Assembly (NCBI GenBank): GCA_000621425.1
Contig: KK211275.1
Span: forward strand, 474,523 to 538,522
From: Lachnospiraceae bacterium AB2028
Lineage (GTDB): Bacteria; Bacillota; Clostridia; Lachnospirales; Lachnospiraceae
Reading direction: 5' to 3'
DNA length: 64,000 nucleotides
The position numbers and the translations under genes are program-made. The notes under the pieces were generated by a model. That model was not told the origin of the DNA, did not search any database, and saw nothing but the letters and a program-made list of their open reading frames with translations. Of the stretch, positions 28,981 to 32,510 are shown piece by piece (position 1 is the first letter of the stretch; every line of letters begins with the position of its first letter).

Positions 28981-30192
28981 ATGCTGATCGTAAAGAAGTT
29001 CGGCGGAACATCGGTGGCAAATAAGGAACGTATCTACAATGTCTGCCGCAGATGTATCGAAGATTACAAAAAAGGAAACAGTGTAGTGGTTGTTCTTTCC
29101 GCTATGGGAAAGATGACGGATGTGCTTATCGAACAGGCTAAGGACATCAACCCCAATCCGTCCAGAAGAGAAATGGACATGCTGCTTACAACAGGTGAGC
29201 AGACATCTGTTGCTCTTGCTGCAATGGCATTTGATGCTTTAGGTGTACCTGCTGTATCTCTTAATGCTTTCCAGGTGGCAATGCATACAACATCCACTTA
29301 TTCAAATGCAAGACTTAAGAGGATCGATACCGAGCGCATCACGCATGAGCTTGACCAGAAGAAGATCGTTATCGTTACCGGTTTCCAGGGAATTAATAAA
29401 TACGGTGATTACACAACCCTTGGACGCGGCGGCTCTGATACAACCGCTGTTGCACTTGCTGCAGCACTTAAGGCTGATGCCTGCGAAATCTATACTGACG
29501 TGGATGGCGTTTATACTGCCGATCCGAGAGTAGTCAAGAATGCAAGAAAGCTTGATGAGATCACATATGATGAGATGCTCGATCTGGCAACCCTGGGTGC
29601 AGGCGTACTGCACAACAGGTCAGTTGAGCTTGCAAAGAAATACGGCGTACAGCTTGTAGTACGCTCCAGTCTTACAAATGAAGAAGGAACAGTCGTTAAG
29701 GAGGAAGTAAAAGTGGAGAGAATGTTGATCAGCGGTGTTGCATCGGATAAAAATTGTGCAAAGATTTCCGTTATAGGTTTGAGCGATAAGCCGGGTGCTG
29801 CTTTCAGGCTTTTTGATGCACTTGCCCAGGCTAATATAAACGTAGATATGATACTTCAGTCTGTTGGCCGTGACGGCGAGCAGGATATCGCATTTACAGT
29901 AGTAGGTGATTACGCCGATGATGCAATGAAGGTTATCGAGGACAGCAGAAAGCGTATCGGATATGAGAAGGTAAGCCTTGAGACAGGCGTTGCAAAGGTT
30001 TCCGTAGTAGGTGCCGGTATGATGAGCAATCCCGGTGTTGCTGCAAAGATGTTTGAATGTCTCTACAATTCAAATATCAACATCAAGATGATCTCTACAT
30101 CCGAGATCCGTGTAACTGTTCTTATTGACGAGAAGGAAGTTGATAAGGCTATGAATGCGGCTCATGAGATCTTCGGACTGGATGAGGCGTAA
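28981..30192 (+). CDS. lysC: aspartate kinase
   Basis: First enzyme of the aspartate pathway (lysine, threonine, methionine). The kinase signature VKKFGGTSVAN is at residues 4-14. ATP and aspartate contacts lie in TTLGRGGSDTTAVALAAALK and YTDVDGVYTADPR. Two ACT domains at the C terminus (about 265-403, ISVIGLSDKPGAAFRLF and VSVVGAGMMSNPGVAAKMF) mark the monofunctional, lysine and/or threonine regulated type. Length is 403 residues, the normal size. AGGAGGAAAAG precedes the ATG. A short perfect hairpin (GCCGTA 28953-28958 with TACGGC 28962-28967) lies just upstream of the ribosome binding site. No lysine riboswitch fits in the 81-bp gap. Confidence 0.96.
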   Translation: MLIVKKFGGTSVANKERIYNVCRRCIEDYKKGNSVVVVLSAMGKMTDVLIEQAKDINPNPSRREMDMLLTTGEQTSVALAAMAFDALGVPAVSLNAFQVAMHTTSTYSNARLKRIDTERITHELDQKKIVIVTGFQGINKYGDYTTLGRGGSDTTAVALAAALKADACEIYTDVDGVYTADPRVVKNARKLDEITYDEMLDLATLGAGVLHNRSVELAKKYGVQLVVRSSLTNEEGTVVKEEVKVERMLISGVASDKNCAKISVIGLSDKPGAAFRLFDALAQANINVDMILQSVGRDGEQDIAFTVVGDYADDAMKVIEDSRKRIGYEKVSLETGVAKVSVVGAGMMSNPGVAAKMFECLYNSNINIKMISTSEIRVTVLIDEKEVDKAMNAAHEIFGLDEA

Positions 30193-30232
30193 ATTCTTCC
30201 TGTTTATTTAGAATTAAGATATGAGTGTATGA

Positions 30233-30270
30233 AAACCGTGGTTCGTGTGAACCGCGGTTTTTTGTTTTTT
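30233..30270 (+). terminator. intrinsic terminator of hom-lysC
   Basis: A 12-bp stem (30233-30244 with 30249-30260, one G-T pair), GTGT loop and a long T-run (GGTTTTTTGTTTTTT). Confidence 0.9.
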
Positions 30271-30352
30271 CCGCTGCTATGGTCGTTCGCCGTGAGACGC
30301 TATACGGCAGGGTATACATAAACTGAGCACAGGTGATTCGATTACATTTGTT

Positions 30353-30382
30353 TTGAGAACCGAAAAGAGTTCAATGTATAAT
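30353..30382 (+). promoter_or_regulatory. upstream promoter P1 of the large RNA
   Basis: TTGAGA at 30353-30358, an 18-bp spacer and TATAAT at 30377-30382. The -35 sits in an imperfect inverted repeat, TTGAGAAC...GTTCAA (30353-30360 and 30369-30374). The only downstream candidate is the structured RNA. Confidence 0.5.
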
Positions 30383-30436
30383 TTGTGAGATTAAGGTAAA
30401 AAGAGTAAAAAAATAAAAAAATAATTCAAAAAAGTG

Positions 30437-30467
30437 TTGACAATTTATTTTATTGTGGTAGTATATA
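30437..30467 (+). promoter_or_regulatory. strong promoter P2 of the large RNA
   Basis: A consensus TTGACA at 30437-30442 is followed 16 bp later by TAGTAT (30459-30464) or 19 bp later by TATATA (30462-30467). The A-run and GTG before the -35 and the GTAGTAT around the -10 closely resemble the tRNA-Gly promoter at 32562-32590, suggesting a strongly expressed stable RNA. Confidence 0.75.
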
Positions 30468-30469
30468 GA

Positions 30470-30976
30470 TAACAACAACAGAGAGTTGTTGATAACATAT
30501 AAAGAGAAAGGCGGAACAATTGCACTGATGATGAAACTGGTCAGATCAGCAAAGTTGTCAAGGATCACTTAGAATAGGAGGTACGGACCGCCCAAGCATT
30601 AAGTAAAGTATCTTAGGTGTTCATCCCTGAAGAAATGTAGAGAACACCCTGTGACGAGAAAGCAGGAACAACTCGATTGAATGACGGGATATATCCGGGA
30701 GGTACAGGAGTCGAAGAGAGCAAGCTTATTTAAGGTTCATCAAGGGAGAAAGCGGTGAGTTGAAAAGGTATCATCGCAGTTTAGAGAACAAAGATGGAGG
30801 ATGATAGGCAGGGCGAATTCGATAGCAGGTCAATTGAATAAGGTTGAGTCCTTGAAGTAAAATTCAGTGAAAGGACGAAGGATTCTCAATTAGGAGGTAA
30901 AGTCCATTGGACATTGAGTCACAGTAAGAGCCCTTGCAGATCGTGAACAGATGATTTGTAAGGGCTCTTATTTTTG
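30470..30976 (+). ncRNA. large structured noncoding RNA (about 505 nt), class unassigned
   Basis: Between a strong promoter and a strong terminator lie about 500 nt without a credible ORF. Nested complementarity is dense. CAACAAC (30473-30479) pairs with GTTGTTG (30485-30491). GGCGG (30510-30514) pairs with CCGCC (30588-30592) and encloses ACAATTGC/GCAAAGTTGT (30516-30523, 30549-30558) and TGAT/ATCA. GGTGTTC (30616-30622) pairs with GAACACC (30642-30648), and TATCATC (30769-30775) with GATGATA (30801-30807). GTCCTT...AAGGAC forms a helix near 30848-30875, and CTCAAT/ATTGAG encloses GTCC/GGAC near 30884-30918. GGAGG recurs four times beside helices. It lacks tmRNA ends, RNase P conserved regions and the SRP tetraloop region. 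Size and likely host group fit the ornate large RNAs such as ROOL, but I cannot match its sequence to that class. Confidence 0.75.
30926..30976 (+). terminator. intrinsic terminator of the large RNA
   Basis: A 13-bp stem with one G-T pair (30926-30938 with 30957-30969, core AGAGCCCTT/AAGGGCTCT) is followed by ATTTTTG. Confidence 0.9.
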
Positions 30977-31044
30977 CTTTCTGCTGGGTTACAGAAAATT
31001 TTTATGTTTACTCCAATATAAGTATGGCAGATGGAAAATTACTA

Positions 31045-31053
31045 TGGTATAAT
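31045..31053 (+). promoter_or_regulatory. extended -10 promoter of the GH3 gene
   Basis: TGGTATAAT at 31045-31053 is a perfect extended -10 (TGn plus TATAAT). The matching -35 position (31025-31030, TGGCAG) is weak. The leader would be about 90 nt. Confidence 0.55.
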
Positions 31054-31148
31054 TAAGCTTGTTTTTCGTAAAAAGTAGTAAGTTTTATGTGGGAAAGCAG
31101 TAAACAAATACAGAATAGTTATATTGGATATAGAATAAGAGTAAAACC

Positions 31149-32510
31149 ATGAAAAAAAACGATAAAAAAAGCACATCGGAATCGCGCAGAAAGATAAGGC
31201 GCAGGCGTCAGATGAGAAATCAGGTGCTGGCATATCTGCTCCTTGTAGTTATAATGTTTTGCATCGGACTTGGTGGATATTATGGCGTAAGAAAGCTGGC
31301 AGATTTCTTCAATGAAAAGCGTGCGGAGACTGAGGCTAGGATTTCCGAAAATCTGGCTACCACACCTTCCGTATCCGAAGAGGAGGCTGTTATTTCCACA
31401 CCTGACAATATAGAAGTTGTTTCTGAAGATTCTATTTCGGAGGATACACCGGAGGAATCTTCTGTTGATCCGGATATTCTGGCTGTTATAGAGTCATTGA
31501 GTGTTGAAGAAAAAGCCGGTGCGCTTATAATGACGACACCGGAGGCACTTACCGGAGTAACTGCTGCGACACAGGCGGGGGAGGGAACAAAAGCTGCTCT
31601 TGAAAAATATCCTGTAGGCATTTTAATCTATGATAAGGATAACTGGGTTGATTCTGAACAGTTTAAGACGCTTATATCAAAAACGAAGGATCTTTATGCC
31701 GAGGCTTATGCGTCTGAAAACGAACTGCAAAGCTTGCTTGTGGCTGTCAAGGAAGATGGCAGTATAAATAAAACCATCAACTTGGATAATGAAATAAGTT
31801 CTGCACCGGAGCTTGGATCGTCTGGAGATAATAACAATGCTTATCAGGCTTATCTTGCTATTGGATCAGCATTGAATGAATACAACATTGATATGGATAT
31901 AGCGCCTTTGTGTGATGTAGCTATAGAAGGGTCCTACGAAACCAACGCATCTTTTGGATCGGATGCCGACATCGTGGCATCCATGGCCGGTTCAGCAGTG
32001 TCGGCGCTTTCAGATCAGAATATAGTTTCATGTATTTATACTTTCCCCGGCCAGGGGGCTCTGAGTGCTGCACCTAAGGGTGGGATGACCGAAACAGACA
32101 AGACGCTTGACGAACTTCGGGAATTTGATTATAAGCCATTTGAATCAGCTGTAAACGAAGGTGCCGGAGTCATAATGGTAGGTAATCTTGCAATTAGTGA
32201 TTCAGATGGTAATTCTATTCCTGCATATATATCCGAATCGCTTATTAATGATGATATACGCGGACAGCTTGGCTTTGCCGGGGTGATAATTACAGATGAC
32301 CTGGCTGTTATTGCCAAGGATGCTGAGTATTCACAGCAGGAGGCAGCTCTTAGAGCGATAAATGCAGGCGTTGATATGGTTTATATAAGTTCTGATTTTG
32401 AGGTAACATACCAGTACCTGATAGATTCCATAAACGACGGCGCTATTACGGAAGACCGGCTTAATGATGCTTTGGTTCATATTTATTCTATGAAGAAAAA
32501 TGCTCTTTGA
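31149..32510 (+). CDS. membrane-anchored glycoside hydrolase family 3 (NagZ-like) protein with altered catalytic dyad
   Basis: The product has 453 residues. A basic N terminus and one helix (about 27-50) anchor it, followed by a Ser/Glu-rich linker. From about residue 115 the GH3 N-terminal barrel is recognisable: LSVEEKAGALIMTTPEAL, YPVGILIYDKDN, YNIDMDIAPLCDVA, and GFAGVIITDDLAV with the nucleophile region Asp383-Asp384, then ALRAINAGVDMVYIS. In NagZ-type beta-N-acetylhexosaminidases the acid-base dyad sits in KHFPGHGDT. Here the segment reads YTFPGQGAL (Gln302, Ala304), so the His and Asp are gone. The fold is kept but the usual mechanism probably is not; it may bind rather than cleave wall sugars, or use another acid. 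No good ribosome binding site precedes the ATG. Confidence 0.82.
   Translation: MKKNDKKSTSESRRKIRRRRQMRNQVLAYLLLVVIMFCIGLGGYYGVRKLADFFNEKRAETEARISENLATTPSVSEEEAVISTPDNIEVVSEDSISEDTPEESSVDPDILAVIESLSVEEKAGALIMTTPEALTGVTAATQAGEGTKAALEKYPVGILIYDKDNWVDSEQFKTLISKTKDLYAEAYASENELQSLLVAVKEDGSINKTINLDNEISSAPELGSSGDNNNAYQAYLAIGSALNEYNIDMDIAPLCDVAIEGSYETNASFGSDADIVASMAGSAVSALSDQNIVSCIYTFPGQGALSAAPKGGMTETDKTLDELREFDYKPFESAVNEGAGVIMVGNLAISDSDGNSIPAYISESLINDDIRGQLGFAGVIITDDLAVIAKDAEYSQQEAALRAINAGVDMVYISSDFEVTYQYLIDSINDGAITEDRLNDALVHIYSMKKNAL

Follow-up and report, generated by a model that had tools for sequence, protein, structure and literature searches.

A family of structured RNA genes in Lachnospiraceae with a candidate micro-ORF and start-less Shine-Dalgarno-like modules

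The intergenic region at positions 30471-30976 of the 64,000-nucleotide stretch of Lachnospiraceae bacterium AB2028 analysed here (the window) belongs, as judged from its sequence, to a family of RNA genes found in many Lachnospiraceae, with a fold that is conserved in the genus. The secure finding is a new RNA family whose micro-ORF looks translated; in it, a Shine-Dalgarno core is followed by a start codon and a short reading frame at the 3' end of the RNA, and start-less copies of the same module lie upstream. We consider it most likely that the RNA acts on translation, either in trans or as a dual-function RNA; action through ribosomes is what we infer from the Shine-Dalgarno core and from the start and stop evidence. 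A first-pass annotation had proposed a giant noncoding RNA here, and of that reading the structured RNA at 30470-30976 stands, whereas the RNA class and the purely noncoding nature do not. The family is absent from Rfam 15 and from the literature searched, and its host family is common in animal guts.

Results

The RNA region 30470-30976 is flanked by lysC (aspartokinase, 28981-30192) and by a gene with a GH3 domain (31149-32510; Pfam PF00933, Pfam having been applied to the window's protein alone). The gap is free of coding frames, as annotated, with no plus-strand ORF of at least 40 amino acids between lysC and GH3. A terminator-like hairpin of 14 pairs with a T-rich tail (30231-30262) follows lysC and divides it from the RNA gene. 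The consensus promoter reported at the 5' end is present (Table 1), and TTGACA with TGnTAnnAT occurs in 21 of 21 aligned genus members, in an alignment whose extraction was anchored on TTGACA and not on the -10 element. The hairpin reported at the other end as a 13-bp terminator is also there, but it comprises about 19 pairs and has TTTTTG directly 3' of it. This T-run is present in the closest species and weak or missing in many relatives. The arms of the hairpin (GCCCTTGCAG/CTGCAAGGGC and similar) are conserved in the genus far beyond the needs of a terminator. The RNA sequence is single copy in its own genome, where the next match has an E value of 0.26.

Table 1. Features of the RNA gene and its promoter-like site, in window coordinates
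Feature	Position	Strand	Basis
Promoter-like site: TTGACA 30437-30442, 16 nt, TAGTAT 30459-30464, preceded by TG	30437..30464	+	Sequence; pattern recurs in genus
Putative transcript of ~505 nt, ends inferred	30471..30976	+	Promoter-to-3'-hairpin interval; kept in relatives
P1, 5' hairpin CAACAAC/GTTGTTG	30473..30491	+	8 double-changed cells vs null 0.3, 0/300 simulations
5' motif copy GGAGGTACGGACCGCC, Shine-Dalgarno-like, slot codon CCC, no start	30577..30592	+	In-frame TAA 30600-30602
P2, GTATCTT/GAGGTAC	30608-30614 with 30699-30705	+	Canonical 0.964 vs null 0.752; double-changed cells 13 vs 3.2, p 0.003
P3	30712-30717 with 30817-30821	+	25 double-changed cells vs 3.2, 0/300
P4	30724-30730/30803-30809	+	Canonical 0.979 vs 0.797, 0/300; double changes p 0.093
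P5	30735-30741/30793-30799	+	Near-invariant; canonical pairing p 0.293, zero double changes
P8, hairpin	30848-30856 with 30863-30876	+	29 double-changed cells vs 4.1, 0/300
3' motif copy: Shine-Dalgarno GGAGG 30893-30897 and P9	30893..30912	+	Motif match, predicted hairpin
P9, small predicted hairpin GTCC/GGAC around start codon	30902-30905/30909-30912	+	Double changes p 0.763
Candidate micro-ORF TTG GAC ATT GAG TCA CAG TAA (MDIESQ)	30907..30927	+	GGAGG-N9-TTG; conserved in-frame stop
P10, 3' hairpin, terminator-like; micro-ORF stop codon in its foot	30924..30971	+	22 double-changed cells vs 7.6, p 0.007

The predicted folding energy of the plus strand is -137.5 kcal/mol, where shuffled sequences average -111.2 (z -4.70; none of 100 shuffles as good), and the minus strand gives a z-score of -2.60 (1 of 100 shuffles). 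The alignment, the RNAalifold consensus and a helix-level test were all made after one genus member, 97% identical, had been dropped (G317); for the 20 members used, RNAalifold predicts 93 pairs. In the helix-level test, 12 predicted elements were set against 300 tree-simulated alignments in which the same substitutions were placed at random. Over all predicted pairs, 116 double-changed (compensatory) cells were observed where 27.3 ± 7.8 were expected, with a maximum of 56 in the 300 simulations, for a structure that was itself derived from the same alignment. Five of the 12 elements (P1, P2, P3, P8 and P10) individually exceed the null for double changes (p <=0.007) and P7 does so at p 0.027; no such excess appears among these 20 genus members in P4, P5, P6, P9 or the two elements that overlap the promoter. 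P4 and P5 together (30724..30809) make up the most conserved core. An all-pairs covariation scan of 21 sequences (G317, G300, G318 and G323 dropped) was underpowered: no canonical pair fell below E 0.05, the best of them reaching 0.075, and the top pair, at E 0.025, is non-canonical.

Two helices originally drawn from the letters of the window did not survive this comparison. GGCGG/CCGCC enclosing ACAATTGC/GCAAAGTTGT is intact in the four closest sequences only, and outside the closest species the alignment shows other letters in place of the TATCATC drawn as pairing with GATGATA; the consensus pairs GATAGGC and GATGGAG with GCTTATT and GTTCATC, further 5'. The proposal of a conserved structured RNA gene is backed by homologues, helix-level covariation, a conserved promoter and the fold z-score. 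Conservation in relatives and covariation, two of the signs to which the first-pass annotation had tied its proposal, are both present in the genus, the covariation at helix level and with the all-pairs scan underpowered.

A DNA search finds the RNA in 24 of 35 genus genomes (E<=0.01), at identities down to 66%. Covariance model R1, which describes the 3' part of the RNA and was trained on TTG members, matches 26 of the 35 at E<=0.1 and 113 of 397 Lachnospiraceae genomes at the same threshold. Since hairpins alone can reach R1 scores between the 20s and 34 bits, as minus-strand matches reveal, 88 matched loci were read for the motif. Its exact form, GAGGTANN[AG][TA]CC, is present in 67 and missing from 21; the reversed sequences gave 1 in 88 and the loci of Clostridiales-1 (RF01699) 0 in 25. 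Eight other loci bring the set to 96, of which 75 hold the motif. Lengths, estimated by eye from the positions of promoter and hairpin, extend from about 190 nt (L012, with two modules) to about 700 nt (L101), and each RNA has from one to at least six motif copies; the six in G232 (L165), five of them exact, are spaced by about 56 nt, with variant copies at both ends.

An exact 19-base 3' pattern occurs in 9 of the 397 family genomes, and in 1 of 391 genomes of the class, which is the RNA's own. It was found in none of 375 class genomes outside Lachnospiraceae, a result that says little because the pattern has low sensitivity, finding 9 of 397 where R1 finds 113. The full layout appears in at least two matches titled Oscillospiraceae and Ruminococcaceae (L247, L269), and on these sequences a restriction of the RNA to Lachnospiraceae is likely rather than proven. 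Six viral contigs match the 3' pattern; none is the present RNA, all six lack a stop in the first 12 codons, and in four of the six an upstream motif with a single mismatch lies 451-763 nt away. An association with phage was rejected on the lack of any such stop in the viral matches and on the chromosomal position of the window's locus between lysC and GH3. Among the 119 stretches listed by a pattern search described below, five from Ruminococcus flavefaciens and Ruminococcus sp. (L241, L243, L276, L281, L299) have a frame of two codons (ME, stop) after GGAGGTAYAGTCCAATGGA and lack a strong hairpin, and at least four of the five resemble one another further downstream; they are probably other sequences, apparently unrelated to the present RNA.

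Searches with the 4227 families of Rfam 15 at gathering thresholds gave no match in the region and only tRNAs in the window, and at E<=10 over 30190-31150 nothing rose above its cut-off. The suggested membership of ROOL, GOLLD, OLE or raiA is unsupported, as none of these matches at E<=10 in the region or in 20 homologous loci. The other suggestion, a new class, finds support within the reach of Rfam 15 and the literature searched. No description of the present RNA was met in the accessible parts of that literature, which includes PMC2864571, PMC8040213, PMC11109978, PMC8632094 and PMC12286853. As far as its accessible text goes, the candidates of PMC8040213 number 3161 and are 27 to 219 bp long, and a piece of the present RNA may be among them, the supplement lists lying outside the comparison. 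Two other identities were tried and rejected: a divergent tmRNA, as an ordinary one is encoded elsewhere (C3:9831-10167, 112.8 bits), and the TwoAYGGAY motif, considered for ACGGAC, which has no match at E<=10 in the region or in the 20 homologous loci.

The module itself reads (A)GGAGGUAYRGWCCA (motif form GAGGUANRGWCC) and contains a Shine-Dalgarno core. In its 3' copy the Shine-Dalgarno sequence, TTG and a six-codon frame (30893-30927) run into the 3' hairpin, a feature absent from the first-pass annotation, and in the genus alignment this module is among the best-conserved parts of the RNA. An in-frame stop is found in each of the 25 genus loci, for whose selection a TTG-containing motif was used; it comes after six codons in 24 and after five in one. 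TAA, TAG and TGA are all used, and 23 of the 25 have GAG or GAA as their fourth codon. For a wider set, 314 listed motif copies were reduced to 251 by dropping copies at least 70% identical, which left, among the matches listed, 144 copies with a start codon in the slot and 107 upstream representatives. Stop triplets following the 144 fall in frame 108 times (12-24 nt) and 18 times in each of the other phases (13-25 and 14-23 nt). The in-frame stops peak at +15 (46) and +18 (50), and at these positions TAA occurs 24 times, TAG 36, TGA 36 and TGG never; 25 of the 144 copies have no stop within eight codons. The start slot holds TTG in 83, ATG in 59 and GTG in 2, counts that are biased by search patterns demanding ATG/TTG or TTG and by the training of R1 on TTG members.

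Locus by locus, a strong hairpin comes after the last copy in 58 of the 75 motif loci, and TTG, ATG or GTG fills the slot of that copy in 56 of them. In the other 17 the last copy found has no strong hairpin after it and a start codon is present in two; the true last copy of these loci may have been missed or may lie off the contig. A pattern search gave at least 123 matches in at least 119 stretches, strain XPB1003 and Hominifimenecus microfluidus CLA-AA-H215 being among the carriers hit. In 93 of the 123 a stop comes within 11 codons and is followed by a strong hairpin. Among the matches listed, these 93 frames have five codons (33), six (49) or eight to eleven (11), and 56 have an exact upstream copy as well. 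Fourteen of the 123 listed stop early without a strong hairpin, and 16 run past 11 codons, some of which are probably ordinary genes. The last copy is probably translated, since in most cases it combines a start codon with a frame that is mostly five or six codons long and stops at the base of the hairpin or close to it. The label 'noncoding' would thus hold in part, for an RNA whose 3' end carries a conserved candidate ORF of six codons.

A length near 500 nt and a multi-helix fold with covariation in the genus would also suit a purely structural, self-assembling large RNA, such as ROOL or GOLLD, in which the micro-ORF is incidental. We hold this to be very improbable: nothing in Rfam matches, the 3' pattern was not found as the present RNA in viral contigs, the 3' module is as well conserved as described above, and the relative L012 has only about 190 nt and two modules. 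Given relatives that short, what the family shares is not the ornate middle.

The neighbouring genes vary. A downstream ORF of at least 100 amino acids was available in 71 loci and is encoded on the strand opposite the RNA in 25 of them. In 19 of 75 loci the downstream proteins fall into a single BLAST cluster, with 15 of the 19 outside the genus and the GH3-like proteins of G314, G300 and G318 among its members. In these three genomes and in G004 the RNA precedes the GH3-like gene, and lysC does not adjoin it. Its own promoter-like site, the downstream genes on the other strand and the varied neighbours are the reasons for regarding 30471-30976, by sequence, as a separate transcription unit and not the leader of one gene. 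A cis-acting attenuator, in which translation of the micro-ORF and its stop in the terminator-like stem control read-through into the downstream gene (here GH3), could draw on the GH3-like gene in the genus members read, on the shared cluster, and on a layout that resembles uORF candidates such as fthC in the accessible text of PMC11109978; an in-frame start and stop with an upstream Shine-Dalgarno sequence do stand beside such a stem. What is lacking is a consistent downstream gene in the same direction, and here the hairpin ends 178 nt before GH3, which has a promoter-like site of its own in front of it (31024-31053), so that we give attenuation only a small chance.

Downstream of the RNA in G318 lies a copy of the Clostridiales-1 RNA (L078 1779-1944). 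Clostridiales-1 behaves as a scattered repeat: at E<=0.1 it matches 23 of the 35 genus genomes, most often G307 (42 times), and the genome of the window 14 times. It was considered for its place beside the present RNA in G318 and rejected as a separate scattered repeat; none of 25 of its loci holds the motif.

A second motif copy, at 30577-30592, had likewise gone unreported. Among the 107 upstream representatives the slot codon is CCN in 78, AAR in 18, ACN in 6, ATC in 3 and another in 2; TAY is kept in 106, and a UCUAAGAAAGGAGG-like run often precedes the motif and RAAACNUAA often follows it. The open frame AGG TAY RGW CCN ... TAA makes translation of the 5' copies tempting, and it was rejected on two counts: 79 of the 107 have no in-frame ATG, GTG or TTG upstream, and the 33 copies without a stop at +9 have their next stop in the three phases 12, 9 and 10 times. 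With no phase preference, the upstream copies are not evidently translated and are taken here as start-less modules, not ORFs, and the UAA that they share at +9 may be a feature of the RNA. There are exceptions. SUG1317 (L238, 136-2250) has two neighbouring RNA genes, paralogues that lie on the same contig. Each contains four or five Shine-Dalgarno-like modules, several of which have an AUG micro-ORF of three to eight codons, so that arrays arise (such as MDS, MDK and MHR, each with a stop); these RNAs are a candidate for the ancestral form. An upstream copy in G318 reads MDH and a stop.

Mean Shine-Dalgarno strength is -11.5 kcal/mol for the 5' copies, -11.2 for the 3' copies and -6.6 for 40 genes of the window, a comparison biased by a motif that contains GAGG by definition. 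The conserved spacer UAYRGWCCA exceeds what a ribosome needs, which suggests a further partner. One form of this idea is that the repeated AGGUAYRGWCC is the site of a translational regulator protein that the RNA titrates, as in CsrA/CsrB/CsrC. The repetition of the motif with a spacer conserved beyond the Shine-Dalgarno core and the regular spacing in G232 would fit such a sponge; CsrA is encoded in 29 of 35 genus genomes, including that of the window, and the top sub-threshold Rfam hit to the region is CsrC (24.2 bits, E 4e-5). That score, however, is far under the cut-off of 61 bits, some motif copies lack GGA, no other site in its own genome carries the 13-base motif, and the micro-ORF is left unexplained; we therefore judge titration of a protein unlikely. 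CsrA in particular is an unlikely partner because four carriers of the RNA that are 92-100% complete (G306, G308, G313, G325) have no CsrA match. A match to RsmY in L102 (17.3 bits, cut-off 57) lies outside the RNA.

Alternatively, the AG-rich modules might capture C-rich small RNAs or mRNA segments by base pairing, as a sponge or antisense RNA. They are complementary to CCUCC sequences, and the promoter-like and terminator-like ends of the RNA are as expected of a small RNA gene. The exact complement of the 13-base motif, however, is absent elsewhere in its own genome on either strand, and this explanation, too, has no place for the micro-ORF; we rate it as improbable.

Discussion

The sequence features described above point to the ribosome as the possible partner of this RNA family. 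We favour, tentatively and at somewhat less than an even chance, a mode of action by ribosome engagement, with a live module at the 3' end and start-less modules upstream. In such a mechanism, 30S subunits would bind the Shine-Dalgarno modules, and initiation would be possible at the 3' module only. A ribosome that starts and stops at the micro-ORF would sit on the 3' end of the RNA and might there influence its stability or activity, and the start-less modules would hold 30S subunits, or another recogniser of Shine-Dalgarno sequences, without initiation. A more specific version, which we regard as rather unlikely, is a ribosome decoy of a new functional class: arrays of start-less Shine-Dalgarno sequences would hold 30S subunits, the 3' micro-ORF would report or gate their availability, and the RNA would sense and buffer free 30S.

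A frame of five to six codons, tied to a structured RNA and to start-less sites that resemble ribosome-binding sites, blurs the line between coding and noncoding. If the modules bind ribosomes, the family offers a direct test of decoy initiation sites in bacteria; if they do not, the motif indicates an unknown regulator.

Several known systems share some of these features. ROOL and GOLLD, which assemble with themselves into an RNA-only cage, are likewise large and structured, yet the present RNA has no covariance-model match to them at E<=10, was not phage-linked in the scan made, and has relatives of about 190 nt as well as a Shine-Dalgarno and micro-ORF module. According to the accessible text of PMC12286853, ROOL has been found in cow rumen, and ROOL and GOLLD are encoded by phages or prophages, often near tRNA islands. 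The fthC and ilvB uORF candidates, in the portion of PMC11109978 covered, also combine a Shine-Dalgarno sequence, a short ORF and a terminator-like stem, and in fthC the stop codon lies within a stem; unlike them, the present RNA has no consistent downstream gene, possesses its own promoter-like site and carries extra start-less copies. Clostridiales-1 is present in genomes that carry this RNA, and in G318 the two adjoin, but it is a separate multi-copy element.

The CsrB/CsrC and RsmX/Y/Z sponges contain several copies of a short purine-rich motif, with GGA in hairpin loops. Multiple short purine-rich motif copies in one small RNA are found here as well, yet the motif is AGGUAYRGWCC and not a loop GGA, it occurs in genomes without a CsrA match, and the Rfam scores stay below cut-off. 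RNAIII, SgrS and SR1, finally, are regulatory RNAs that also carry a short ORF. The present family would resemble these dual-function RNAs in joining an RNA of regulatory type to a short ORF, and the sequence signatures of both an independent unit and a translated short ORF are present; it differs from them in an ORF of mostly five or six codons, placed at the very 3' end, and in its repeated start-less Shine-Dalgarno modules.
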